Shown piece after piece: positions 1-61,471 of a DNA stretch of 64,000 nucleotides. The DNA comes from Paracoccus methylovorus (GTDB taxonomy: Bacteria; Pseudomonadota; Alphaproteobacteria; Rhodobacterales; Rhodobacteraceae). The notes beneath the pieces are model-generated. The model searched no databases. It was given only the letters and a program-made list of their open reading frames with translations, and was not told the DNA's origin. The stretch's first letter is position 1; each line of letters begins with the position of its first letter. The stretch lies in contig NZ_CP070371.1 of NCBI RefSeq assembly GCF_016919705.1, positions 649,501 through 713,500 on the forward strand. The letters run 5' to 3'. Both the position numbers and the translations under genes were made by a program.

Positions 1-63
1 GACGGATTGATTGCCGGGGCCGAGATTGCCGGTGTCTCGTTCAATCAGGAAAGGCATGCTTGA
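1..63 (+). CDS. C-terminal end of an unidentified protein (cut by window start)
   Basis: The frame is open from base 1 to a TGA at 61-63 and gives a 20-residue C-terminus ending FNQERHA. The stop shares its last base with the ATG of the next gene (TGATG at 61-65), the usual sign of translational coupling, so a real gene of the same operon probably enters from the left. Too little remains to name a family. Confidence 0.6.
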   Translation, partial: DGLIAGAEIAGVSFNQERHA

Positions 64-575
64 TGCATCTGGCCTATATCAGCCTGCCCGGTCGCGGTGC
101 GAACGACCGCTTTCTTGCCGTCGTTGCAGAGCAGGCTCTGGCTGTCGGGCTGCGACTGGCCGGGACGGTGCAGGTCAATATCCAGCGCGAAGGGCGTATC
201 AAATGCGATATGGACCTGCGCGTCCTGCCTGATGGCCCTGTGTTGCGCATCAGCGAGGATCGGGGAAATGGTGCGCGCGGCTGTCGGCTGGACGCCGGTG
301 TTCTGGAAGCTGCGGTGGTTGGTGTTACGGCGGCGTTGCCCACGACCGATCTGTTGTTGGTTAATAAGTTTGGCAAGCAAGAGGCCGAGGGGCGCGGTTT
401 CGCACCGCTGATCGCCGAGGCTTTGTCGCGCGGCATTCCGGTTTTGGTCGGGGTAAACGGGTTGAACCTGCCGGCTTTTCAGGAGTTCTCCGACGGGCTT
501 GCCACGCCCCTTCCTGCTGACGAGGCGTTGGTACTTGACTGGTGTCAGGAGGTGGGCGGTCTGCACCCCGCTTAA
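63..575 (+). CDS. DUF2478 family protein
   Basis: A 170-residue protein. The pattern with RCDMDLRVLPDGP-like (here KCDMDLRVLPDGP), DRGNGARGCRLD, LLLVNKFGKQEAEGRGF and IPVLVGVN matches the DUF2478 family, which looks like a P-loop-derived fold with an NKFGK segment like a G4 motif. These genes often sit beside molybdenum or denitrification genes, but their function is not established. I chose the ATG at 63 because it overlaps the upstream stop by one base; a TTG at 60 in the same frame is the alternative. A strong terminator follows directly, so this is the last gene of an operon that begins outside the window. Confidence 0.8.
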   Translation: MHLAYISLPGRGANDRFLAVVAEQALAVGLRLAGTVQVNIQREGRIKCDMDLRVLPDGPVLRISEDRGNGARGCRLDAGVLEAAVVGVTAALPTTDLLLVNKFGKQEAEGRGFAPLIAEALSRGIPVLVGVNGLNLPAFQEFSDGLATPLPADEALVLDWCQEVGGLHPA

Positions 576-650: not shown

Positions 651-1862
651 TCAGGCCCGCCTTGGTCCTGAAACCGGCTTGGCTGCCAGACGCGGCCGAG
701 CCAGCACCGGCAGATAGAGCAGGGCGAAGCCGCCAAAAGCCAGGAACCAAAGCGTGCCCGACAGATGCAGCAGCCAGACCTGATCCGGCACGATTCCCGC
801 CAACACCCGCATCACGACCGAGCCAAGCAGCGCCAGATAGGTGGCCGTGGTGCCGCCATTGGCGTGCAGGGGCCGTCCGGTATGACCAAGGCTTGCCCGG
901 CTCATGACCGCCAGCGTCATCAACCCGATCGCGCCGGCCAGCCAGACATGGCGGGCAGGTGCCGCTGCGATCAGGCCGAAACCGGCCGCCGCCTCGGCCC
1001 AGAAGCCCAGTGCCAGCGCCGCATAGGCCAGATGCAGGACCCAAAGCAGCGGTTCAGCGGTGGTGCGAAGACCCTGCCAGCGCGCCAGCCGCCACAGATG
1101 CGCAGTTCCGCAAGCCAGCATCAACCAGCGCATGAAGGTGGCTTCGGGCACAACGACAAAGCCGGTAAGCGTGACGACTGTCAGCCCCAGCACCAACCCA
1201 TCGCCGCGGTTGAAGGGTACAGGCAGGCGCTTGGCACCCCGCGCAACCAACCAGTTGCGGGTAAAGCTGGGGATGATGCGCCCGCCGATAAACGCGATCA
1301 GCAACAGGGCGGCCGCCAGTCCCAACCGCATGCCTGTGCCTTCGAAGGCTGCGCCTGCATTGGCGGCCTCGATGTGGAACAGCGCGTTGCCGCCGATGAA
1401 CACGGCCAGCAGCGTCAGCACCGGCAGGTTGCGCCAGTTTCTGCCGCTCAAGACTTCGCGCGCCAGAAAACCCAGAAGGGTTAGCCCCCAAGCCAGATCG
1501 ATCAGCATGACCAGCCGCCAGTCGATCAGTGCCGAGGTTGCGACCGCGACGCGGCCCAGAAGCCACAATCCGACTATCCCGGCCAAGGGTATTCCCATCA
1601 CGGGTAGCCTGCCGGTCCAGTTCGGCACCGCGGTCAGCAGGAACCCGGCGATGACCCCGCCCAGATAGCCGTAAAGAAATTCATGTGCATGCCAACTGAA
1701 CGGGTCGAAGGCCATCGGCAGGATGTCGGCCCCGGACAGCATGGCCACCCAGATGACCATGGCCAGTGCCGCCCAAAGTGCCGAAAGCAGGAAGAATGCC
1801 CGGAACCCGTGGCTCAGCAGCACCGGCCCGTGATAGTTGCGCCTGCGTTCCGAGGTGGACAT
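651..1862 (-). CDS. nnrS: NnrS family membrane protein
   Basis: A 403-residue, very hydrophobic protein with about 12 membrane segments. The N-terminal LLSHGFRAFF motif and WHAHEFLYGYLGGVIAGFLL are typical of NnrS, a haem- and copper-containing inner-membrane protein first found in Rhodobacter and linked to tolerance of nitric oxide and protection of the cellular iron pool; its exact biochemistry is unsettled. The start at 1862 has a GGAG sequence about 11 bases upstream. It follows ubiV by only 21 bases and is probably the last gene of ubiT-ubiU-ubiV-nnrS, which would put it under the FNR-type box at 4337-4350. Confidence 0.88.
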   Translation of the reverse strand: MSTSERRRNYHGPVLLSHGFRAFFLLSALWAALAMVIWVAMLSGADILPMAFDPFSWHAHEFLYGYLGGVIAGFLLTAVPNWTGRLPVMGIPLAGIVGLWLLGRVAVATSALIDWRLVMLIDLAWGLTLLGFLAREVLSGRNWRNLPVLTLLAVFIGGNALFHIEAANAGAAFEGTGMRLGLAAALLLIAFIGGRIIPSFTRNWLVARGAKRLPVPFNRGDGLVLGLTVVTLTGFVVVPEATFMRWLMLACGTAHLWRLARWQGLRTTAEPLLWVLHLAYAALALGFWAEAAAGFGLIAAAPARHVWLAGAIGLMTLAVMSRASLGHTGRPLHANGGTTATYLALLGSVVMRVLAGIVPDQVWLLHLSGTLWFLAFGGFALLYLPVLARPRLAAKPVSGPRRA

Positions 1863-1883
1863 CGCGCGTCTCCGTTAAAATCG

Positions 1884-2780
1884 TTAGGGGCAGGGGGCCG
1901 CACCAGCGCGCGCCTCCAGAAAGCCCTGGGCGAAAACTGCACCCGGTTGGATACGCCGAAGATCGGCTAGAGCCTGGTCCGGTGCAAGCCCACTGTCCAG
2001 CAGCCTTGCGTAAAGCCCGATCACCGCGGCAAAATCACCCGGCTGCGGCGACAGGCGCAGCGCCGCGACACCGGCTTCGCGCAATTCGTCGATCTGGCCG
2101 GCCACGGTCATGTGGCTGTGGCTAAGCGTCTGCACGCCATTCACGGTCAGGAAGGCTTGACCCTCCAGCGTCTCGACCGTGCGGCCATCGGGGTCCTCTT
2201 CGCAAACGAACTGGCAGCTGTCCTTGGCGCGATCATGCAGCCGTGCGTGATAGCACCTGCCCGAGATGGCGAGAGGAGCGCGGCCATGGCCCCAGACCTC
2301 GACGGCAACCCCGGCCTGCTGACCGGCGCGGGCCAGCCGCGCGACCGACGCCAAAGGCAGCTCCGGCGGCAGGCAGATCCGCTGCGCCCCCCGGGTCGCC
2401 AGCCATTCCAGCGTGCCTTCGTTATAGACGTTCACTGTCGGGGCGACCCAGAAGGGGGCGCCCTCGGGCAGGTGCCTCAGCGCAGTCAGATCAGCGATCT
2501 CGACCGGCAGGCCCGAGGCGAAAAGCTCGGCCGTCTGCCGGCGTTCACGTTTCAGCGTCACCAGCGTCAGGGTCGAAAGCGCGACCTGTTTTCCGGCGGC
2601 TTGCAGCACCTCTACTGCGGCGGGAATTTCATGCTGCCAGAACGGTAACCGTTTGGAGCAGACCCATTCGCCGATCACCACCCGTTTGACGGGGGTTTCG
2701 GCCAGCGTCCGGTAAAAGTCGCGAACCTGATCCGCGCTCCAGAAAAAGGCGATGGGGCCAACCGTCAGGTCCATGGTCAT
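1884..2780 (-). CDS. ubiV: O2-independent ubiquinone biosynthesis protein UbiV (U32 peptidase-like)
   Basis: A 298-residue U32 peptidase-family protein. UbiV forms a heterodimer with UbiU that hydroxylates the ubiquinone ring without O2, each subunit carrying a [4Fe-4S] cluster. The expected ligands are visible: C41 (GEWVCSKR) and C176, C189, C193 in a CX12CX3C arrangement. The start at 2780 overlaps the ubiU stop as ATGA; MDL six bases downstream is an alternative. It is the third gene of the leftward ubiTUV-nnrS operon. Confidence 0.93.
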   Translation of the reverse strand: MTMDLTVGPIAFFWSADQVRDFYRTLAETPVKRVVIGEWVCSKRLPFWQHEIPAAVEVLQAAGKQVALSTLTLVTLKRERRQTAELFASGLPVEIADLTALRHLPEGAPFWVAPTVNVYNEGTLEWLATRGAQRICLPPELPLASVARLARAGQQAGVAVEVWGHGRAPLAISGRCYHARLHDRAKDSCQFVCEEDPDGRTVETLEGQAFLTVNGVQTLSHSHMTVAGQIDELREAGVAALRLSPQPGDFAAVIGLYARLLDSGLAPDQALADLRRIQPGAVFAQGFLEARAGAAPCP

Positions 2781-3772
2781 CTCCAGGTCTTGGCATAGGC
2801 GCCGGTGGTTGCGGCTTGTCCTTCGGTCAGGCGCGCCAGCAGCCCCTCGGGCATCGGCGCACCCTGTTCGGCCGCTTCGACTGCGGCGCGAAAGGCGCGC
2901 ACCACCTGCGCGACATAGGCGCGCGAACGCTGGCGGCCCTCGATCTTCAGGGCACTGACCCCGGCCTTTTGCAGCGCCGGAATCAGCCGGGTGGCGTCAA
3001 GGCTGACCGGGTCCTCGAAGATATGGCCGGTCTGGCTGTTGCCCTTGTCGTCGGGCGACGTGAAGCAGCCCTTGCACAGCGTCGGATAGGGCACGGGCAT
3101 GCCCTTGGGCGTGCGGTGGATCAGGAAATCGCCCAATCGCGCCTCGTGATTGCCGCCGATATCGGAATAGGTGACGTGGCTTGCCGGGGAGCAGACGCCA
3201 TTCATGTTCGGCGAAAGCCCGGTGGCGTAAGAGGACAGCGAACACCGACCTTCGGCCATGACGCAAAGTCCGCCAAATACGAAAACCTCGGTCTCGACGT
3301 CGATTTCGCGGTTGATGGCGGTGATCTCCTCGACCGAAAGCACGCGCGGCAGTACGACGCGGCGGATGCCGAAGGTCTGGGCATAGAAATTGATCGCATC
3401 GGGATTGGCGGCGGCGGCTTGCACCGACAGGTGCAGGCGCAGACCGGGATGGGCCTCGGCGGCATGGGCGATCAGGCCCAGATCGGCCAGGATGACGGCA
3501 TGTGCACCCAGATCGGCGGCATCGCGAACCGCATCGTGCCACAGCATCTGTTCGCCTGCGCGGGGGAAGGTGTTGATCGCCACCAGCACCTTGGCGCCCC
3601 GCGTTTGGGCGTAGGCCACGCCATCCGCCAGCTCTTCGCGGCTGAAGTTCAGGCCAGGAAAGTTGCGCGCATTGGTTTCGTCGGCAAAGCCGCAATAGAC
3701 CGTATGCGCCCCGGCATCGACCGCCGCGCGCAGTGCCGCGGGGGTTCCGGCCGGACAGACCAGCTCCATCAT
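2777..3772 (-). CDS. ubiU: O2-independent ubiquinone biosynthesis protein UbiU (U32 peptidase-like)
   Basis: A 331-residue U32 peptidase-family protein and partner of UbiV in anaerobic hydroxylation of the ubiquinone precursor, with prephenate as oxygen donor in the E. coli work. The iron-sulfur ligands appear as C170, C177, C194 and C233. If translation starts at the second Met (3769) they become 169, 176, 193 and 232, the E. coli numbering, so 3769 may be the true start. The gene overlaps ubiT by 4 bp and ubiV by 4 bp, a tightly coupled operon. Confidence 0.95.
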   Translation of the reverse strand: MMELVCPAGTPAALRAAVDAGAHTVYCGFADETNARNFPGLNFSREELADGVAYAQTRGAKVLVAINTFPRAGEQMLWHDAVRDAADLGAHAVILADLGLIAHAAEAHPGLRLHLSVQAAAANPDAINFYAQTFGIRRVVLPRVLSVEEITAINREIDVETEVFVFGGLCVMAEGRCSLSSYATGLSPNMNGVCSPASHVTYSDIGGNHEARLGDFLIHRTPKGMPVPYPTLCKGCFTSPDDKGNSQTGHIFEDPVSLDATRLIPALQKAGVSALKIEGRQRSRAYVAQVVRAFRAAVEAAEQGAPMPEGLLARLTEGQAATTGAYAKTWR

Positions 3773-4302
3773 GGCATCACCTCTTGTCGAGACAGAATAA
3801 AGCCGCTTTTGCGCGCGACCAGTGCCGAACCCCGGCGCAGCCAGCGGCCCAGCGGCTGGCCTGAAATCCCCGCCAGTTCCTCGGTCAGGTCCAGTTCGGC
3901 GTCGTCCAGTGCGTTGCGCAGCGCCAGCACAGCCGAGGTGTCGCCCGAGATCTGCAACTCGCCCGAAAAGAACAACGCATCGCCATCCTCGGCACCGTGC
4001 AGCATGGCCAGAAACGCGGCCAACCCGCCCCGGATCGCGGCATCGTGATCGGGGGCGGCCGCGCGACGCGAATGGGCGGTCAGCCGCCGGGCCTCGGGCT
4101 GCATCAACAGCAGAAAGGGCGCGTCGCTGACATCAAGCAGGAAGCGCGACTGACGATAAGGGCCAAGGCGTGACAGGATTGCCGGCTTTTCCGTCGCAAT
4201 CCTGCGCAAAAACGCGGTTAACGCCAGACCGAGGGCCGGGCGTGTAAGCGGAGGGGGCGGGAGCCGCATCATGAGCGGCGGCAGAGAGGGGCGCTGGGTC
4301 AT
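3769..4302 (-). CDS. ubiT: Ubiquinone biosynthesis accessory protein UbiT (SCP2 domain)
   Basis: A 177-residue protein with an SCP2 sterol-carrier-like lipid-binding domain over roughly residues 45-145 and a Pro-rich N-terminus. UbiT is the anaerobic counterpart of UbiJ and is thought to hold the prenylated intermediates. It is the first gene of the leftward operon. There is no Shine-Dalgarno sequence before the ATG at 4302. The FNR-type box is centred exactly 41.5 bp upstream of this A and a TAGACC hexamer sits at -12 to -7 from it, so the message may be leaderless; Met-11 or Met-12 would be the alternative start. Confidence 0.88.
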   Translation of the reverse strand: MTQRPSLPPLMMRLPPPPLTRPALGLALTAFLRRIATEKPAILSRLGPYRQSRFLLDVSDAPFLLLMQPEARRLTAHSRRAAAPDHDAAIRGGLAAFLAMLHGAEDGDALFFSGELQISGDTSAVLALRNALDDAELDLTEELAGISGQPLGRWLRRGSALVARKSGFILSRQEVMP

Positions 4303-4336
4303 GCCATGGGTCTAGGCCCGTCAATCGGGACTGTGA

Positions 4337-4350
4337 TTGATCTTTGTCAA
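4337..4350. promoter_or_regulatory. FNR/CRP-family box shared by ubiT and ubiD operons
   Basis: TTGATCTTTGTCAA matches the FNR-family consensus TTGAT-N4-ATCAA with one mismatch. It lies between the divergent ubiT and ubiD. From its centre (4343.5) a class II start site would fall at 4302 on the minus strand and 4385 on the plus strand. Each has a -10-like hexamer at -12 to -7: TAGACC (4314-4309) and TAGCTT (4373-4378). Which regulator binds (FnrP, NNR or another member) cannot be told from sequence. Confidence 0.8.
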
Positions 4351-4426
4351 ATCGGTCGGGGAAATTCCTGCCTAGCTTGCCCCCTCATGATCCGCCCGCC
4401 TTTACGCGGGCCTGCCGGAGCCATCA

Positions 4427-5896
4427 ATGCGCAGCCTTCCCTCGTTTCCCGACCTGCGGGCTTTTCTTTCCTGGCTGGAGGCGCGGGGTGAATATGCGCG
4501 TATCGCCGAGCCGGTTTCCCTGCGTCACGAGATGACGGCGGTGCAACTGGCCTGCCTGCGGCGCGGCGGCCCGGCATTGCGCTTTGACCAGCCCGCGGGC
4601 GCGCAGATCCCGGTGGTCGCCAATCTGTTCGGGACGCGTGCGCGGGTCGCGGCGGGGTTGGGGCTTCAACCCGACGAAATCTCGGGCTTTGGCGAGTTCC
4701 TCGCGGCATTGCGCAGTCCCGCCCCGGTCGAGGGGATGCGCGATGCGATGTCGCGTTGGCCGATGCTGCGCGCGGCGCTTTCGACGCGGCCCAAACTGCT
4801 GCGCCACGGTCCGGTTCAGGATGTCGAGCTGCCCGACCTCGATTCACTGCCGGTGCAGACGCCCTGGCCCGAGGATGGCGGACCCTTGATTACCTGGCCG
4901 GTGGTGCTGACGAGGCCGCACAGCAGTCGGGCCGAGGATCTGATCCGCTATAATCTGGGCGTTTATCGGGCGCAGGTGCTTGGCCCCGACCGGCTGATCC
5001 TGCGCTGGCTGGCGCATCGCGGCGGGGCGGCGCATCACCGCAGTTGGGCCAAGGCGGATGAGCCGATGCCCGTGGCCATCGCGCTGGGGGCCGATCCGGC
5101 GCTGTTGCTTGCCGCCGCGCTGCCGCTGCCCGAGACCGTTTCCGAATTGGGCTTTTCCGGCGTATTGCGTGGTGCTCGCACCGAGCTGGTCGCGGCGCAG
5201 ACGGTGCCGCTGATGGTGCCCGCCCGCGCCGAGATCGTTATCGAGGGCTGGGTCCATCCCGGTGAGACCGCGCCAGAGGGGCCTTTCGGCGACCATACCG
5301 GCTATTACAATGCCGTCGAGCCTTTCCCGGTCATGCGCGTAAGCCGTATTACCTGCCGCAACGACCCGCTTTACCTCTCGACCGTCACCGGGCGACCGCC
5401 TGACGAGCCGTCGGTCATCGGCGAAGTGTTCAACGAACTGGCGCTGCCGGTCATACGCGCCCAGATCCCCGAGATCGCCGATCTGTGGCTGCCGCCCGCC
5501 GCCTGTTCCTATCGCATGGCGGTGGTGGCGATCGACAAACGCTATCCCGGTCAGGCGCGGCGGGTGATGATGGCGTTGTGGGGGATGCTGCCCCAATTCA
5601 GCTATACCAAGCTGGTGGTCGTGGTGGACAGCGACATTGATGTGCGCAGTTGGGACGATATCGCCTGGGCGATCTCGACCCGGATGGATCCCGGTCGCGA
5701 CGTGATGCTTCTCGACCGCACGCCGATGGATTACCTCGACTTCGCCTCACCGCTGGAAGGACTGGCGGGCAAGCTGGGTCTGGATGCGACCACCAAGATC
5801 GGTGCCGAAACCAATCGCGAATGGGGCCGCGTCATGCGGCTTGACCCGCAGCACGAGGCGCGGGCCGAAGCCCTGCTTGCTACGGTGATGCCATGA
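4427..5896 (+). CDS. ubiD: UbiD family prenyl-FMN-dependent decarboxylase
   Basis: A 489-residue UbiD-family protein. UbiD removes the carboxyl group of 4-hydroxy-3-polyprenylbenzoate in ubiquinone synthesis, using prenylated FMN made by UbiX. Family landmarks are YNLGVYR (about 175-181), EGPFGDHTGYY (about 284-294, with the acidic residue region used in catalysis) and VAIDKRYPGQARRVMMA. The ATG at 4427 has GGAG eight bases upstream. It overlaps ubiX by ATGA at 5893-5896. Its place opposite ubiTUV under one FNR-type box favours a role in anaerobic ubiquinone synthesis over aromatic degradation, though the family has both. Confidence 0.9.
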   Translation: MRSLPSFPDLRAFLSWLEARGEYARIAEPVSLRHEMTAVQLACLRRGGPALRFDQPAGAQIPVVANLFGTRARVAAGLGLQPDEISGFGEFLAALRSPAPVEGMRDAMSRWPMLRAALSTRPKLLRHGPVQDVELPDLDSLPVQTPWPEDGGPLITWPVVLTRPHSSRAEDLIRYNLGVYRAQVLGPDRLILRWLAHRGGAAHHRSWAKADEPMPVAIALGADPALLLAAALPLPETVSELGFSGVLRGARTELVAAQTVPLMVPARAEIVIEGWVHPGETAPEGPFGDHTGYYNAVEPFPVMRVSRITCRNDPLYLSTVTGRPPDEPSVIGEVFNELALPVIRAQIPEIADLWLPPAACSYRMAVVAIDKRYPGQARRVMMALWGMLPQFSYTKLVVVVDSDIDVRSWDDIAWAISTRMDPGRDVMLLDRTPMDYLDFASPLEGLAGKLGLDATTKIGAETNREWGRVMRLDPQHEARAEALLATVMP

Positions 5897-6480
5897 GGGT
5901 GGTGCTGGGTGTCTCGGGTGCTTCGGGCGCGGCGTTGGCCTTGGATTGCGCCCGCGCGCTGGTTCGCCTTGGGGCCGAGATTGATCTCGTCGCCTCGGCC
6001 ATGGCCGAGCGGACGCTGGTCGAAGAGGTCGGCCCGGGGGCGCTAAACGAACTGCAGTCTATCGCCACGCGCGTTCACGCGCAGCGCGATCTGGGGGCCG
6101 AGATCGCCTCGGGTTCCTGCCCGGTCGCCGGCATGATCGTCGCGCCCTGTTCGATGCGCAGCCTGGCCGCTATCGCGCATGGTTTCGATGACGGCCTGCT
6201 GACCCGCGCCGCTGGTGTGCAGTTGAAAGAGCGTCGCCCGCTGGTTCTGCTGGCGCGCGAAGCGCCGCTGACCTTGGCGCATTTGGAAAACATGCAGGCC
6301 GCGACCCGGATGGGTGCAGTGATCCTGCCTCCTGTTCCGGCCTTTTATCTGCGTCCGCAATCTCTGGCCGAGGTCACCGGCCAGATTGCCGCCCGTGCGG
6401 TCGATCTGCTTCGTCTTGGTCCGCCACTGGCGCGGGCATGGACTCCACGTCAACCCGCCCCCAATGGAGAACCATCATGA
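5893..6480 (+). CDS. ubiX: Flavin prenyltransferase UbiX
   Basis: A 195-residue flavoprotein that attaches a dimethylallyl group to FMN to make the prenyl-FMN cofactor of UbiD. The N-terminal GVSGASGAA flavin loop (about 6-14), APCSMRSLAAIA, the phosphate/prenyl-binding segment LAREAPLTLAHLENM and PPVPAFY are all present. It overlaps both neighbours by 4 bp (ATGA), so cofactor and enzyme are made together. Confidence 0.95.
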   Translation: MRVVLGVSGASGAALALDCARALVRLGAEIDLVASAMAERTLVEEVGPGALNELQSIATRVHAQRDLGAEIASGSCPVAGMIVAPCSMRSLAAIAHGFDDGLLTRAAGVQLKERRPLVLLAREAPLTLAHLENMQAATRMGAVILPPVPAFYLRPQSLAEVTGQIAARAVDLLRLGPPLARAWTPRQPAPNGEPS

Positions 6481-7145
6481 CCGACATCACCCTGGCGCCC
6501 GACAGTATCGTCGGCGACATTGCAGCCCGGCTGCCCGGCGCTGCCGAAGTGTTCCGCCGTGCCGGCATCAGCTTTTGCTGCGGCGGCAAAGCCGGGTTGG
6601 CCGAGGCCGCAGCCAAGGCCGGGATTGAACTGCCGACTCTGACCGCCGAACTTCAGGCGCTGATCGACCGGGCCGGGCGCGATGCTCCCGACGAAACGCC
6701 GGCGATGATCGAGTATATCCTGTCACGCTATCACGCCACCCACCGCGAGGAACTGGGCTGGCTGATCGGCTTGGCGGACCGGGTGGAGATGGTGCATGGC
6801 GATCATGACGAGGCCCCGCTGGGCTTGACCGAAGCGCTGGTTTCGCTGCGCGACGATCTTGAATCGCATATGGCCAAGGAGGAAGCCGTCCTGTTCCCCG
6901 CCATCTTGCAGGGCGCCGGCGCGCACATGCTGGCAGGACCGATTCGCGTCATGCAATCCGAGCATGAGGATACCGGCGGGCTGCTGCGCCGGATCGAGCA
7001 TGTCACCAACGGCCTCGCCCTTCCGGTCGGGGCCTGTGGCTCCTGGACCGCGCTTTATACCGGCGTGCGCAAGCTTTGCGACGATGTGGTCGCCCATATC
7101 CATCTTGAGGAAGAGGTGCTGTTTCCGCGCGTTCTTGCCATCTGA
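6477..7145 (+). CDS. ric: Iron-sulfur cluster repair di-iron protein (RIC/YtfE/ScdA)
   Basis: A 222-residue protein with an N-terminal ScdA_N (DUF542) domain containing Cys34-Cys35 (ISFCCGG) and a C-terminal hemerythrin-like di-iron domain. Likely ligands by comparison with YtfE are H86, H131, E135, H163, H207 and E211. The family repairs iron-sulfur clusters after nitrosative or oxidative damage. The ATG at 6477 overlaps the ubiX stop by 4 bp, so it is the last gene of ubiD-ubiX-ric. Coupling with the quinone genes is notable because UbiU and UbiV carry [4Fe-4S] clusters. Confidence 0.93.
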   Translation: MTDITLAPDSIVGDIAARLPGAAEVFRRAGISFCCGGKAGLAEAAAKAGIELPTLTAELQALIDRAGRDAPDETPAMIEYILSRYHATHREELGWLIGLADRVEMVHGDHDEAPLGLTEALVSLRDDLESHMAKEEAVLFPAILQGAGAHMLAGPIRVMQSEHEDTGGLLRRIEHVTNGLALPVGACGSWTALYTGVRKLCDDVVAHIHLEEEVLFPRVLAI

Positions 7146-7181: not shown

Positions 7182-7454
7182 TCAGCCCGCAGTGGCACCG
7201 CGCATCGGAACGTCGAAGCGCGCGCGCTTGAGGATCGTTCCGGTATCGTCGATGGTCAGCCGCAGGGCCTGTGCCTGGAAAAAGAAGGTCAGGCGATGGC
7301 GGCCGGCGTCTTCGCCTTCGCCGGTCTCGCAGCGGGTGGTTATGCGGTTTTCGCGCATCAAGCCGGGCACTTGCTCGGGTTCAAGCCCGAAGGCCGAGGC
7401 CAGTTCCTGCGCCTCGACAACGAAACCTTGGTCGGTCAGGTTGATCTTGGTCAT
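7182..7454 (-). CDS. small DUF6522-like protein of denitrification loci
   Basis: A 90-residue soluble protein beginning MTKINLTDQGFVVEAQELA; no cysteine cluster or membrane segment except a single Cys in TTRCETGEGED. I recall similar small proteins, grouped as DUF6522, near nir, nor and nos genes of Rhodobacterales; the function is unknown. The start at 7454 has GGGGAAAC just upstream; an extended reading frame exists further upstream but is not needed. An FNR-like box lies about 85 bp upstream of the start. Confidence 0.65.
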   Translation of the reverse strand: MTKINLTDQGFVVEAQELASAFGLEPEQVPGLMRENRITTRCETGEGEDAGRHRLTFFFQAQALRLTIDDTGTILKRARFDVPMRGATAG

Positions 7455-7532
7455 GCTGTTTCCCCTTGCCGCCATCCTGGCTGACATATGGATATCCGCC
7501 GGGGGTTTTGCCATGGCCGAAAAGGCTTCGGG

Positions 7533-7612: not shown

Positions 7613-8059
7613 TCAGTTGACTTGCGCCAGTTCCGCGTCCATGCGCTCGCGCGCTTTCTTGGGCATCTTGGCCGTTTTGGCCACTTCGGCGTTCGCCGGC
7701 GCGTCGCCGACCTGCACGAGTCCGACCATGCCCATGCCGAAATGCGGTGTGCATTTCACGCCGTAAAGCCCGGGCTCGGTCACGGTCAGCGTATAGGATT
7801 CGTTGATCTTGCTTTTGAAGTGCTCGACGCCTTCGGGCAGGATTTCCTTGATCGCCTCGACGTTGTGGCTTTTGTCGGTCGGGATGAAGTTGATCACGTC
7901 GCCCGGCTCGGCCCGGACATAGGCCGGCTCGAACACCATGGCGCCGGATTCGCCTTTGTTGAGCATATGCACCTCATGAGTCGCGGCATATGCGGGGACA
8001 ACAAGACCAAGCGCCAGCACGGTGCTGACGGCTGCGGCGAAGGATTTCTGGAACATCAT
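7613..8059 (-). CDS. pazS: Pseudoazurin (type 1 copper protein)
   Basis: A 148-residue periplasmic cupredoxin with a Sec signal peptide ending near [10 protein letters not shown]. Copper ligands are the His in DKSHNVEA and the Cys, His and Met in [13 protein letters not shown]. Pseudoazurin carries electrons to cd1 nitrite reductase and N2O reductase in Paracoccus, as an alternative to cytochrome c550. AAGGAG stands before the start. It is divergent from nosC and has its own FNR-type box at 8131-8144 with a predicted leader of about 37 nt. Confidence 0.96.
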
Positions 8060-8235: not shown

Positions 8236-8249
8236 TTGATTTAAATCAA
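8236..8249 (+). promoter_or_regulatory. perfect FNR-type box upstream of nosC
   Basis: TTGATTTAAATCAA is a perfect palindrome matching the FNR consensus. Its centre (8242.5) is exactly 41.5 bp before the A of the nosC ATG at 8284, and TAGACG lies at 8272-8277, the -12 to -7 position. This should drive nosC and probably the whole nos operon when O2 is low. Confidence 0.9.
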
Positions 8250-8283: not shown

Positions 8284-8793
8284 ATGTGCCGCCGCGCGAT
8301 TCATAATCGGGTCCAAAGCCTTTTCGCCTTTGCCGCGATTTTCCTTCTGCTTCTCGCGGGGTGGATCGGGACGGGTGTTGCGATGCCTGCCCAGCTTGCC
8401 GGGGTTCTGACCGGCCCCTTGCATGAGGTTGCCATCTGCGCCGAAGGCCATGCCCGCACCATCTGGCTGGACGCCGAGGGAAATGAGCATTCCGCGCCGC
8501 AAGAGTGCCGCGACTGCCCGCTGTGCCACATGCCCGAACTGGCCGCCAACCCCGAACTGCGCCTGCCTGCCGGTTCGGATCAATGGTGGCGCCACGATGG
8601 GCAGCTTTTGGCGGCGCAGGTTCCTATTGTGGGTCGTGCCATATCTGTGTGGGCGCGCGGTCCTCCGTTTTCATTCTCTGCCTGGACCGTAGCGGTCCCG
8701 TCGCCTGCGAGCGACTGCCTGGGGCTTGGCGCGGCCAATCCGCGCCAGCCGATGCACGGGGTCTGGGCAACTGCCAGGGATACCCGAGCATGA
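8284..8793 (+). CDS. nosC: NosC, small membrane-anchored protein of the nos operon
   Basis: A 169-residue protein with one N-terminal membrane segment (about residues 12-33) and a CXXCXXC motif at C75, C78, C81, plus C52. nosC is found at the head of Paracoccus nos operons. The motif suggests metal binding or redox activity, but its role is not known. It overlaps nosR by ATGA at 8790-8793. There is no clear ribosome-binding site before the ATG, and promoter geometry predicts that transcription begins at this A. Confidence 0.85.
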   Translation: MCRRAIHNRVQSLFAFAAIFLLLLAGWIGTGVAMPAQLAGVLTGPLHEVAICAEGHARTIWLDAEGNEHSAPQECRDCPLCHMPELAANPELRLPAGSDQWWRHDGQLLAAQVPIVGRAISVWARGPPFSFSAWTVAVPSPASDCLGLGAANPRQPMHGVWATARDTRA

Positions 8794-10970
8794 AGATCTT
8801 CCGTTTCGTCCTGACGATTGCGCTGCTGCTGCTACCGGCGCTGCCGGCGACCGCCGAAAGCGTGCTGGAGCAACTGCTGCCCGACCAGAACGCGGCGGAA
8901 CTGGTGCCGGGCGCCGACGGGTTCGGACCCATCAGCACTGAGTTGGCCGTTGCCCCGGTGCTGAAGGGTGGCGAGACCGTTGCCCATGCCTTCATCACCT
9001 CTGACTTCGTCGGCACCACGGGTTATTCCGGCAAGCCGATCCATACGCTTGTCGCGGTGGACAATGATGCGAAGATCGCCGGTGTCCAACTGGTCAAGCA
9101 TTCCGAGCCGATCGTGCTGATCGGCATCCCCGAGGCCAAGATCAAAACGCTGGTCGAGGGATATACGGGGCTGGATCTGGTGGCCGAGGCGCAGTCCGGC
9201 GGCACCGCGCATGACGTCGAGATCATCTCGGGGGCCACGGTCACGGTGATGGTGATCGATGATTCCATCGTGCGGTCTGGTCTGAAGGTTGCGCGCTCGC
9301 TTGGCCTTGGCGGTCTGGTCACCGAGGCTGCTGCCAGCGGGCCGAAGTTCGAGATCAATCCTGAAGCGGTCCTTCCGGCCGATTGGCACGAGATGGAGGG
9401 TGACGGCACTCTGCGCCGGTTGGCGCTGGATGTCGGTCAGGTAAATGCGGCCTTTGCCGACAACGCCGATCCCCGCGCCGCCGAACGCGCGCTGACCGAG
9501 CCGCCCGAGACCACTTTCATCGAGATGTACGCCGGGCTGGTGTCGGCCCCCGCAATCGGTGAGGTGTTGCTAGGGCAGGCGCAGGATACGAACCTGAAAA
9601 ACTGGCTCGTCGAGGGCGATCACGCGATAGCGGTAATGGGGCGTGGCCTCTACAGCTTCAAGGGGTCGGGCTATGTGCGGGGCGGTATCTTCGACCGCAT
9701 CGTATTGATCCAGGACGATATCTCGGTTCGTTTTCTCGACCGCGACCATCGCCGGTTGAATGCCATCGCAGCCGATGGCACGCCGGAATTCACCGAGATG
9801 GATCTGTTCAAGATTCCCGCCGCTTCGGGTTTTGACCCGACGAAGCCCTTTCGCATTCAGTTGCTGGTCCAACGCGAAGTCGGGCCGATCGAAAAGGTCT
9901 TCCACACTTTCGACCTTGGCTATCAACTGCCGCAAAAATACCTGCGTGCCATTGCCGTTGCGCCAGAGGCCGCGCAACCTGCAGCCGAGCCGGACGAGGC
10001 GCAGGCTCAGGCCCAGTTGTGGAAACGCATCTGGCTGGATTCCAAGCTCAAGATCGCAGGCGTTGGTGTCATGCTTCTGGTGCTGACCGGGGTGTTCTTC
10101 TTCCAGAGTTTTGCCACCCGGAACGAGCGCGCATTTTATATCTTCCGCATGGGTTATCTGGTGATCACGCTGGTTTTCCTGGGCTGGTATGCCAATGCGC
10201 AACTGTCGGTCGTCAACCTGATGGCCCTGTTCGGCAGCCTCGTGAACGGCTTTAGCTGGCAGGCTTTCCTGCTTGATCCGCTGACCTTCATCCTCTGGTT
10301 TGCTGTGGCTGCCGCACTGCTGTTCTGGGGGCGCGGCGCCTATTGCGGCTGGCTTTGCCCCTTTGGCGCGCTGCAAGAGCTGACCAACCAGATCGCCCGC
10401 AAGCTGCGTATCCCGCAATGGACCTTGCCTTGGGGCCTTCATGAACGGCTGTGGCCGGTCAAATACATGATCTTCCTTGGGCTTTTCGGCGTCTCGTTGA
10501 TGAGCATCGAGCGGGCCGAGCATTTAGCCGAGGTCGAACCCTTCAAGACCGCGATCATCCTGAACTTCGTCCGCGCCTGGCCCTTCGTGGCCTATGCGGC
10601 GGCACTTTTGATCGCGGGCCTTTTCGTCGAGCGGTTCTATTGCCGCTATCTTTGCCCCTTGGGCGCGGCGCTGGCGATTCCGGCCCGGATGCGCATGTTC
10701 GACTGGCTCAAACGCTATCACGAATGCGGCAATCCCTGCCAGACCTGCGCCCACCAATGCCCGGTGCAGTCGATCCATCCGACGGGCGAGATCAATCCCA
10801 ACGAATGCATCAACTGCATGCATTGCCAGGTTCTTTACCAGTCCAAGACCACCTGCCCGGTGGTGATCAAGAAGTTGAAGCGGCGCGAAAGCATGGCTGC
10901 CGGCAGCGTGCCCAATTTGGGCAAGCCCCCGGCAGGTCATCCCAACGCCGCACGCAAGGTTGAAGTTTGA
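8790..10970 (+). CDS. nosR: NosR, membrane flavo-iron-sulfur protein for N2O reductase
   Basis: A 726-residue protein. In order: signal peptide, a periplasmic FMN-binding domain with the SGATVT flavin-attachment motif (147-152), several membrane segments, two cytoplasmic CX3CP motifs (CGWLCP and CRYLCP), and a C-terminal polyferredoxin-like stretch (CGNPCQTCAHQCP and CINCMHC). NosR is needed for nosZ expression and for electron supply to N2O reductase from the quinol pool. Its flavin is expected to be attached by NosX, encoded at the end of the operon. Confidence 0.96.
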   Translation: MKIFRFVLTIALLLLPALPATAESVLEQLLPDQNAAELVPGADGFGPISTELAVAPVLKGGETVAHAFITSDFVGTTGYSGKPIHTLVAVDNDAKIAGVQLVKHSEPIVLIGIPEAKIKTLVEGYTGLDLVAEAQSGGTAHDVEIISGATVTVMVIDDSIVRSGLKVARSLGLGGLVTEAAASGPKFEINPEAVLPADWHEMEGDGTLRRLALDVGQVNAAFADNADPRAAERALTEPPETTFIEMYAGLVSAPAIGEVLLGQAQDTNLKNWLVEGDHAIAVMGRGLYSFKGSGYVRGGIFDRIVLIQDDISVRFLDRDHRRLNAIAADGTPEFTEMDLFKIPAASGFDPTKPFRIQLLVQREVGPIEKVFHTFDLGYQLPQKYLRAIAVAPEAAQPAAEPDEAQAQAQLWKRIWLDSKLKIAGVGVMLLVLTGVFFFQSFATRNERAFYIFRMGYLVITLVFLGWYANAQLSVVNLMALFGSLVNGFSWQAFLLDPLTFILWFAVAAALLFWGRGAYCGWLCPFGALQELTNQIARKLRIPQWTLPWGLHERLWPVKYMIFLGLFGVSLMSIERAEHLAEVEPFKTAIILNFVRAWPFVAYAAALLIAGLFVERFYCRYLCPLGAALAIPARMRMFDWLKRYHECGNPCQTCAHQCPVQSIHPTGEINPNECINCMHCQVLYQSKTTCPVVIKKLKRRESMAAGSVPNLGKPPAGHPNAARKVEV

Positions 10971-10988: not shown

Positions 10989-12947
10989 ATGGAATCGAAA
11001 CAGCATAAAGGTCTCAGCCGCCGCGCGCTGCTGGGCGCAACCGCCGGAGGCGCGGCTGCGGCCGGGGCTCTGGGGGGGCGGTTGGCACTTGGGCCGGCCG
11101 CGCTTGGGCTTGGCACCGCGGGTATCGCGACGGCCGCCAGCACTGGTGCGGCATTGGCTGCGGGCGGCGACGGGGCAATCGCTCCGGGCCAGCTTGACAG
11201 CTATTACGGCTTCTGGTCCTCGGGCCAGACCGGCGAGGTGCGGATCATGGGCATCCCGTCGATGCGTGAATTGATGCGCGTGCCGGTTTTCAACCGTTGT
11301 TCGGCCACCGGCTGGGGCCAGACCAACGAATCGTTGCACATTCATGATCGCACAATGACCGAGCGGACCAAGAAGCATCTGGCCGCGAACGGCAAGCGCA
11401 TCCACGACAACGGCGACCTGCATCACCTGCACATGTCCTATACCGAGGGCAAATACGACGGTCGCTATCTGTTCATGAACGACAAGGCCAATACCCGCGT
11501 GGCACGGGTGCGCTGCGACGTGATGAAATGCGATTCGATCCTGGAGATCCCGAACGCCAAGGCCATCCACGGCATGCGTCCGCAGAAATGGCCGCGCTCG
11601 AACTATATCTTCTGCAACGGAGAGGACGAGGCGCCGCTGATCAACGACGGCACCACGATGGAGGACGTGTCCACCTATGTGAACGTGTTCACCGCCGTGA
11701 ACGCCGACGAGATGGAAGTTGCCTGGCAAGTTCTGGTGTCGGGCAACCTCGACAACTGCGACGCCGATTATGAAGGCAAATGGGCGTTCTCGACCTCGTA
11801 CAACTCGGAAATGGGTATGAACCTGGCCGAGATGAGCGAATCCGAGATGGACCACGTCGTCGTCTTCAACCTCGCCGAGATCGAAAAGGCGATTGCGGCC
11901 GGAGATTATCAAGAAGTCAACGGTTGCAAGGTTCTGGACGGCCGGAAAGAAGCCAACAGCCAGTTCACCCGCTACATCCCCATCGCCAACAACCCGCATG
12001 GTTGCAACATGGCGCCGGACAAGAAGCACCTTGTCATTGCGGGCAAGCTTTCGCCCACGGTGACGGTGCTTGATGTGACCAAGTTCGACGCGATCTTCAA
12101 TGAAGGCGCCGACCTGCGCAGCCCGGTGGTGGCAGAACCGGAACTGGGTCTCGGCCCGTTGCACACCGCCTTTGACGGGCGCGGCTACGCCTATACCTCA
12201 CTCTTCATCGACAGCCAGGTGGTCAAGTGGAGCCTTGACGAGGCGATTCGAGCCTATGCCGGCGAAAAGATCGACCCGATCAAGCAAAAGCTGGACGTGC
12301 ATTACCAGCCCGGTCACCTCAAGATCGTAATGGGCGAGACGCTGGATGCCCGCAACGACTGGCTGGTTTGTCTGTGCAAGTTCTCGAAGGACCGTTTCCT
12401 GAACGTCGGCCCGCTGAAGCCGGAAAACGACCAGTTGATCGACATTTCGGGTGACAAGATGGTGCTGGTGCATGACGGCCCCACCTTTGCTGAACCGCAT
12501 GATGCCATCGGCGTGGACCCTGCGGTTTTGTCGAATATCAAGTCGGTCTGGGACCGCAACGACCCGATGTGGGCTGAAACCCGCAAACAGGCCGAGGCGG
12601 ATGGCGTCAACATCGACGAATGGACCGACACGATCATCCGCGACGGCAACAAGGTGCGGGTCTACATGTCCAGCGTGGCGCCCAGCTTCTCGATCGAGAG
12701 TTTCACGGTGAACGAGGGCGATGAAGTCACGGTCATTATCACGAACCTTGACGAGATCGACGACCTGACCCACGGTTTCACCATGGGTAACCACGGTGTC
12801 GCCATGGAGATCGGGCCGCAGGCGACTTCTTCGATCACCTTTACCGCCGCCAATCCGGGGGTCTATTGGTATTACTGCCAATGGTTCTGCCATGCGCTGC
12901 ACATGGAAATGCGTGGCCGCATGCTGGTCGAACCGAAGAAGGCCTGA
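10989..12947 (+). CDS. nosZ: Nitrous-oxide reductase NosZ (clade I)
   Basis: A 652-residue periplasmic enzyme that reduces N2O to N2. A Tat signal (SRRALLG, residues 9-15) marks it as the typical clade I form exported folded. The N-terminal seven-bladed propeller binds the CuZ centre; the C-terminal cupredoxin domain carries the CuA ligands H595, C630, W632, C634, H638 and M641 ([12 protein letters not shown]). AAGGAG lies before the start. It lies 18 bases after nosR in nosCRZDFYLX. Confidence 0.98.
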
Positions 12948-61457: not shown

Positions 61458-61471
61458 TTGATCTGGGTCAA
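61458..61471 (-). promoter_or_regulatory. FNR-type box between ompW and mccB
   Basis: TTGATCTGGGTCAA, one mismatch to consensus and the same half-sites as the ubiT/ubiD box. It is centred 65.5 bp upstream of ompW. A TAGAC-type -10 is not seen at the class II distance, so the effect could be activation from another position or repression. Confidence 0.6.

Follow-up and report, generated by a model that had tools for sequence, protein, structure and literature searches.

A probable oxygen-independent ring-chemistry set for ubiquinone in two divergent operons of Paracoccus methylovorus

A probable locus for ubiquinone synthesis without oxygen

A 64-kb stretch of the Paracoccus methylovorus genome (contig NZ_CP070371.1, positions 649,501 to 713,500; hereafter the window) carries ubiT, ubiU, ubiV and nnrS on one strand and ubiD, ubiX and ric on the other (Table 1). 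In our view this locus is very probably an oxygen-independent ring-chemistry set for ubiquinone, arranged in two divergent operons, with the nitric oxide (NO) genes nnrS and ric as recruited partners. UbiX would make prenylated flavin mononucleotide (prFMN), with which UbiD would decarboxylate decaprenyl-hydroxybenzoate, and UbiU-UbiV together with UbiT would hydroxylate the ring without O2. Both operons would be governed by one box of the CRP/FNR family, and nnrS and ric would be expressed together with the ubi genes because a denitrifier deprived of O2 is exposed to NO. UbiDX would be needed here because the aerobic decarboxylation of the family relies on an O2-consuming monooxygenase (UbiN in Rhodobacter capsulatus), which cannot work in anoxia.

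The pairing of UbiD with ubiTUV supports this reading. Among 149 genomes sampled from the family of the window (taken as Rhodobacteraceae), UbiV is present in 31, UbiD scoring at least 430 bits in 16, and both in 13 (hypergeometric P 5e-8); the 430-bit line is our own and was placed in a gap between scores, the cut-off of the TIGR00148 family being 245 bits. In all 13 family genomes that have both, the coordinates place UbiD next to ubiTUV. Because UbiD pairs with and adjoins ubiTUV, it behaves as an anaerobic gene in this family. Elsewhere in the class (taken as Alphaproteobacteria), each of the 18 genomes with UbiV also encodes UbiD. UbiD stands beside UbiV in 16 of the 36 family loci and in 8 of the 18 other loci of the class, while among 57 other loci of the phylum it does so in 7, and UbiX in 18. 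ubiDX is linked more strongly than the NO genes, since it completes the pathway without O2, a point that was missed by a preliminary description of this DNA.

Outside the class, tandems of UbiD-UbiU-UbiV or UbiX-UbiU-UbiV are found (L160, L161, L165, L182 and several of L166-L189, where L denotes a locus), which represent another linkage of the same steps. In L021 ubiD, and in L023 ubiT, is matched in two open reading frames (ORFs), owing to decay or an assembly error.

Mutants of R. capsulatus agree with this assignment. Strains lacking ubiD-X or ubiU-V grow like the wild type with O2 and do not grow without it, ubiD-X cells accumulate decaprenyl-hydroxybenzoate, and the aerobic decarboxylative hydroxylation is performed by UbiN (PMC10626278). 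It is very improbable that ubiD and ubiX serve another aromatic acid and stand here fortuitously. The presence of two more UbiD-family proteins in the host genome would favour such a role; however, the best structural match of the window's UbiD is E. coli UbiD (2idb, 539 bits), with at most 183 bits to the other solved UbiD-family enzymes, and the window's copy is the only one of the three host members above 430 bits (TIGR00148: 453 vs 312 and 289). The pairing with ubiTUV over many genera and the R. capsulatus mutant data also speak against another substrate. With the equivalog PRK10922 the window's UbiD finds its best match, yet below the cut-off (551 bits, cut-off 788).

Several observations weigh against the proposed role of the locus. 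Three of the 16 family genomes with UbiD of at least 430 bits have no UbiV, and the R. capsulatus study states that expression and function of ubiD extend to growth with O2 (PMC10626278). The sequence of the box fails to separate FnrP from NNR control. As to the aerobic counterpart, the ORF at C1:387096-388049 of the host genome (C denotes a contig) resembles 3-hydroxybenzoate/salicylate hydroxylases below the cut-offs and is only a candidate for UbiN. Finally, the roles of the window genes, which would act as in R. capsulatus, and the presumed co-transcription of both operons are what we infer for this organism.

The host genome comprises 4.38 Mb in five contigs, with the window on C4 and nirS on C1. 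A search of it for COQ4 found none. FAD_binding_3 gave 18 matches, 12 of them given as loci; six ORFs were scanned, of which two pass models of the UbiH/UbiF type and one is the UbiN candidate named above.

Samples and comparison

The comparison used profiles grown from the window proteins. Eighty named loci are the best 80 of 100 relatives obtained with a UbiV query against genome contigs. The 149-genome family sample, in which the window's genome is one of 31 with UbiV, contributed another 30 loci, and 80 came from a sample of 398 genomes of the phylum, in which 121 genomes lay above the cut-off and 40, mostly repeats of well-sampled families, were left out besides the window's. UbiV was present in 191 loci including the window; five identical ones were dropped, leaving 186, and thinning at 85% UbiV identity left 147. 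The UbiV tree (99 rows) was built by a quick method, and 28 of its 96 inner branches are well supported.

Two types of UbiU

The preliminary description had pointed to cluster cysteines in UbiU and UbiV, and four were indeed located in each protein: C170, C177, C194 and C233 in UbiU and C41, C176, C189 and C193 in UbiV, with the spacing of the ligands mapped in E. coli. Those of E. coli UbiU are C169, C176, C193 and C232, of which C176 matters in vivo (PMC6747719). The four UbiV cysteines are kept in all 147 thinned loci. In UbiU (window numbering, as below), C177, C194 and C233 are invariant across the 146 thinned loci, whereas C170 is retained in 100 of them. Among the 185 unthinned UbiU sequences position 170 is Cys in 112 and Gly in 72, the remaining one (L099) being cut by a contig end.

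The two types differ in further residues, which cluster beside the Fe-S ligands. Gly-type proteins have N168, T180, N181 and T188 in all 72 cases and H169 in 70, giving an NHG motif, while the 112 four-Cys proteins have G or S at 168, S180, S181 (in 111), P188 and mostly L169. The Gly type forms one clade on the UbiU tree (one change, support 100), in which the trait columns were kept in the alignment. It is found in L026-L082, the L024-like four-Cys loci excepted, and in others.

The type of UbiU goes together with the presence of UbiD, for which a whole-genome search was tabulated for 169 loci. UbiD reaches 430 bits in 92 of the 95 four-Cys genomes and in 0 of the 72 Gly-type genomes, 69 of which have none at all. 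The four-Cys exceptions are L118, with a UbiD of 349 bits, and L168 and L020, both without UbiD, the contig of L020 stopping close to ubiT. The lower-scoring members in L073 (262 bits, with a stop), L082 (320) and L089 (290) fall in the range of the two paralogues of the host genome. At the family cut-off of 245 bits the counts are 93/95 vs 3/72, and when the 57 other phylum loci are left out, UbiD is present in 38/39 four-Cys vs 0/72 Gly-type genomes. L099, whose type is unreadable, is without UbiD, and L179, which has no UbiU match, has it. A further 17 four-Cys named loci, outside the genome table, all contain UbiD within the locus. Fisher's test gives P 3e-44, a value that ignores kinship and counts no independent events, because the genomes are related, some are incomplete metagenome-assembled genomes, and the Gly type arose once.

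The same division runs through single genera. Albidovulum/Defluviimonas has both types (four-Cys in L017; Gly in L027, L030 and L050), and L016, titled Defluviimonas, has a four-Cys UbiU. In Ruegeria, plasmid pTHAF33_a bears a four-Cys UbiU with UbiD and UbiX (the search being confined to the plasmid), and L031 and L066 are of the Gly type with no UbiD. A Thioclava nitratireducens plasmid encodes a UbiU that is 90% identical to a query of the Gly type, and the 8 kb around it contain no annotated UbiD. Rhodovulum loci L069 and L072 are of the Gly type; Rhodovulum and Rhodomicrobium were named as UbiD-less, and their anaerobic decarboxylation was left open (PMC10626278).

Hosts of Gly-type UbiU thus appear to manage O2-free ubiquinone synthesis without UbiD. 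One conceivable, if rather unlikely, explanation is that two kinds of such synthesis exist and that Gly-type UbiU-UbiV also removes the carboxyl group by means of a re-ligated or open-site cluster, mirroring aerobic UbiN; the changes at and beside the cluster are GLC to NHG, which replaces its first cysteine, and the fixed S180T, S181N and P188T. The window would exemplify UbiDX-dependent synthesis, its UbiU having all four cysteines. As the Gly type arose once, the pairing of UbiU type with UbiD is a lead, not proof, concerning decarboxylation without UbiD. More simply, the same lineages may possess an unlinked decarboxylase, or a single clade that happens to sit in UbiD-less hosts may have diverged neutrally. 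Among family genomes without UbiTUV only 3 of 118 have UbiD above 430 bits, so that absence of UbiD is the default of the family. Among the recurrent neighbour clusters (20 representatives scanned), no candidate substitute for UbiD in the Gly-type loci stood out.

Cys159 was considered as a replacement ligand, as it is present in 72 of 72 Gly-type proteins, and also in 7 of 56 four-Cys class-mates. It was rejected: in the modelled Gly-type UbiU of L069 (mean pLDDT, the predicted local distance difference test, 84; 72-74 in blocks 161-190), residue 157, the equivalent of Cys159, immediately precedes the strand 158-166 and the lost cysteine position (168 in L069) immediately follows it, so that by secondary structure one cluster would be unlikely to bind both positions. 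A fold search with the model returned the U32 peptidase Mk0906 (5d88) first and then many unrelated enzymes, and did not inform on the cluster; a sequence search with the window's UbiU gave no solved relatives at an E-value of 0.01.

Gene content and junctions

Table 1. Features of the locus and its neighbours (window coordinates)
Feature	Position	Strand	Description and family score
nnrS	651..1862	-	haem-copper membrane protein, NO stress; PF05940 353 bits, over gathering score, full length
ubiV	1884..2780	-	subunit of O2-independent hydroxylase; NF047965 equivalog 355 bits, over cut-off
ubiU	2777..3772	-	O2-independent hydroxylase subunit, four-Cys type; NF047963 equivalog 493 bits, over cut-off
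ubiT	3769..4302	-	accessory factor with SCP2 domain; NF047962 equivalog 74 bits (cut-off 47)
FNR/NNR-type box TTGATctttGTCAA	4337..4350	.	between divergent operons; TTGAYN4RTCAA palindrome
ubiD	4427..5896	+	prFMN-dependent 3-polyprenyl-4-hydroxybenzoate decarboxylase; TIGR00148 453 bits, over cut-off
ubiX	5893..6480	+	flavin prenyltransferase making prFMN; NF004685 205 bits and TIGR00421, both over cut-off
ric (ytfE type)	6477..7145	+	di-iron Fe-S cluster repair protein; TIGR03652 214 bits, over cut-off
DUF2478 (PF10649)	60-575		neighbour ORF, function unknown
DUF6522	7182-7463		neighbour ORF
pseudoazurin	7613-8059		neighbour ORF

Coordinates and family scores agree with the preliminary description of ubiT-ubiU-ubiV-nnrS and ubiD-ubiX-ric diverging from one FNR/NNR-type box, each operon ending in an NO-defence gene (the assignments of NnrS to PF05940 and of Ric to TIGR03652 are both over cut-off). 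The tiny gaps and 4-bp overlaps that it mentioned were recovered from the coordinates as four 4-bp overlaps (ubiT/ubiU, ubiU/ubiV, ubiD/ubiX and ubiX/ric) and one 21-bp gap between ubiV and nnrS. For ric, the start at 6477, with an ATGA overlap with the ubiX stop, is the likeliest and is preferred over the mechanical ORF start at 6438.

Ric consists of ScdA_N and hemerythrin domains and has the N-terminal CC pair. It aligns with E. coli YtfE (5fnn) at 178 bits, with matching His/Glu columns, some of which we assume to bind iron, and narrowly misses the YtfE equivalog PRK10992 (232 bits, cut-off 254). Beyond pseudoazurin, the ORFs at 8784-10970 and 10989-12947 are presumably NosR and NosZ.

The regulatory box

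TTGAYN4RTCAA has three matches in the window vs 0.09 expected in shuffles. Further boxes of the FNR/NNR type lie at 8236-8249, upstream of the presumed nos genes, and at 61458-61471. The centre of the box between the operons is upstream of both, 41.5 bp from the ATG of ubiT and 83.5 bp from that of ubiD. The classical activator spacing is -41.5; if it is valid here, transcription of ubiT would start right at its annotated ATG, and ubiT may be leaderless or start further downstream. The motif occurs in 33 of 43 ubiD-ubiT divergent regions, near-copies included, and has no match in ten (L008, L019, L021, L112, L139, L140, L142, L144, L158 and L159). Judged by sequence, this one palindrome is a putative shared site that would control both operons and is conserved among relatives.

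FNR sites at ubiTUV have already been published: they were found at 1362 of 1566 across Pseudomonadota (PMC11707229), and an Fnr site at ubiTUV was reported in Sphingopyxis (PMC7713065). The predicted alphaproteobacterial DNR regulon includes nnrS, a U32 protein and a lipid carrier, and in R. sphaeroides U32 and lipid-carrier genes are confirmed targets of FnrL (PMC2908626); DNR and NnrR were described as NO-sensing (PMC1274295). A table of genes changed in the Bradyrhizobium nnrR mutant lists a sterol-binding/U32 operon with -10.3 and -15, which we read as fold changes, and with the box TTGTTCCCGCTCAA (PMC6710368). The same letters stand in the ubiD-ubiT region of L139. We take the U32, lipid-carrier and sterol-binding proteins of those regulons to be of the UbiU and UbiT types. 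These published DNR/NnrR, FnrL and Fnr links support the view that genes for anaerobic ubiquinone synthesis are controlled in response to NO and O2.

NO genes beside ubiTUV

Genes nnrS and ric lie beside ubiTUV far more often than chance would place them. NnrS occurs near UbiV in 9 of the 31 family UbiV genomes vs 0.17 expected and Ric in 8 vs 0.06, the expectation being calculated from rounded genome sizes and uniform placement. In the 36 family loci, counted over a neighbourhood of roughly -7 to +6 kb around UbiV in which contig ends lower some counts, NnrS is near in 11, Ric in 9, either in 13 and neither in 23; for the 18 other loci of the class the respective numbers are 9, 4, 10 and 8. 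Anywhere in the genome, NnrS is found in 30 of the 31 family UbiV genomes vs 73 of 149 overall, and Ric in 12 of 31 vs 27 of 149.

The arrangement varies considerably. NnrS is the next gene after ubiV, in the same orientation, in 19 of the 186 loci, near-copies included: the window, five Paracoccus and 13 loci of the UbiD-less kind. The full layout of the window is seen in 6 of 186 (the window, L003, L004, L005, L006 and L025, the last five being Paracoccus). Six Paracoccus plasmid records cover the whole locus; one is the record of L006, so five are further instances. The copy on the Paracoccus yeei plasmid NZ_CP020441.2 (227725-235412) is split into two matching segments, and a recombinase gene lies beneath the match. 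The preliminary description had suggested searching for conserved ubiTUV-nnrS and ubiDX-ric adjacency: this adjacency is enriched above chance and takes several layouts, but it concerns a minority of loci (either gene near in 37 of the 147 thinned loci), which does not support a conserved unit.

Repeated changes are also seen on the UbiV tree, where the fewest possible are 16 for NnrS, 13 for Ric and 6 for UbiD. Its supported branches leave ten independent pairs that differ in NnrS; on average Ric changed the same way in 3.3 of them and the opposite way in 0.4, which is not significant joint gain or loss (sign test, median p 0.25). On the NnrS tree the ubiV-adjacent copies fall into two distant branches, both of which are represented, in tandem, in L050. 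The ubi-linked Ric also has two forms: its N-terminal domain is present in Paracoccus-like loci and missing in L031, L049, L054, L057, L066 and L150, among others. An apparent UbiX-Ric fusion in L012 (one 418-aa frame; L012:5747-7022) was rejected after reading three frames, because ubiX is frameshifted and its usual end, in another frame, overlaps the start of ric. Loci of both kinds repeatedly have DUF2478 (PF10649) next to ubiTUV, Ric and NnrS.

What keeps these genes together can be explained in two ways. According to the preliminary description, NO arising during denitrification would damage the [4Fe-4S] clusters that UbiU and UbiV hold, and quinone synthesis would be sustained by Ric repair and NnrS tolerance. 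We regard this as possible, yet on balance doubtful. The above-chance adjacency, the near-constant presence of NnrS in family UbiV genomes, the repeated changes on the UbiV tree, the occupation of the slot after ubiV by two NnrS branches, and the published ties of ubiTU-type genes to NO-responsive regulators (PMC2908626, PMC6710368) are in its favour, and that nnrS and ric would keep UbiU-UbiV working under NO is plausible. On the other hand, three quarters of the thinned loci have neither gene near, and outside the class both are rare (NnrS near UbiV in 2 and Ric in 5 of the 57 other phylum loci). Adjacency of an NO gene shows no link to nir genes, either in the family (10/24 nir-positive, 3/12 nir-negative) or in the rest of the class (6/13 and 4/5), where nir status means PF02239 or NirK over the cut-off. 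PF02239 also matches NirF and NirN. Moreover, the host has spare copies of both genes: three of nnrS (the window, C4:974941 and C2:58425) and two of ric (the window and one more). In the parts of the literature that we drew on, no NO-damage test of UbiUV was found, nor any report that NO stops UbiUV or that ric or nnrS protect it. The same sources contain no report of ubiTUV-nnrS or ubiDX-ric adjacency; PMC12423496 names ubiTUV and nnrS, though not as neighbours, and a text search of the P. denitrificans proteome study PMC5987163 gave no matches.

Alternatively, nnrS and ric might be denitrification genes that gather with ubiTUV in anaerobic islands and have only regulation in common with it, a serious possibility that we stop just short of calling probable. 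The presumed nos genes, pseudoazurin and the second box adjoin the locus, and nos homologues also occur close to ubiTUV in L012, L015, L020, L065 and L103. NrdD (anaerobic ribonucleotide reductase) and a radical-SAM gene, which represent another O2-free route beside ubiUV, recur in 17 and 13 of the 147 thinned loci, and a CRP/FNR gene, an ABC ATPase and an aldehyde dehydrogenase are frequent neighbours too. However, in four genomes (G010, G031, G070 and G111) nirS is on a different contig from ubiTUV and has its own NnrS within ~10 kb, and a second NnrS lies at ubiTUV, with the proviso that separate contigs need not be separate replicons. The overlaps and the 21-bp gap in the window also point to co-transcription.

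Relation to known systems and significance

Among known systems, UbiTUV of E. coli shares with the window the same three equivalog families, the cluster cysteines and FNR-type control, and has ubiT and ubiUV in two divergent operons, with UbiD and UbiX serving both conditions (PMC6747719, PMC10470549). In contrast, ubiTUV of the window run in one direction, divergent from ubiDX, with NO genes attached. In R. capsulatus ubiD and ubiX form one operon as in the window, and both pairs are needed only without O2; nnrS, ric and a linkage of ubiD-X with ubiU-V are unmentioned in the sections of that study drawn on here (PMC10626278). The Pseudomonadota survey describes conserved ubiTUV clustering and FNR sites, as seen in the window, and its main text makes no mention of UbiD, UbiX, nitric oxide or cysteines; as far as that text goes, the UbiDX pairing and the cysteine change in UbiU are absent from it (PMC11707229). 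The alphaproteobacterial DNR/NnrR regulons also bring U32 and lipid-carrier/sterol-binding genes under NO-responsive regulators, but they differ in that the relation is regulon membership, not one transcript, and that R. sphaeroides uses FnrL there (PMC2908626, PMC6710368).

Denitrifiers and purple bacteria that have ubiquinone as their only quinone must make it without O2. The relation between UbiU type and UbiD presence provides a named protein and residues with which UbiD-less decarboxylation can be tested. As the window packs an anaerobic ubiquinone set together with NO-defence genes, a single locus gives access to both quinone supply and NO stress.

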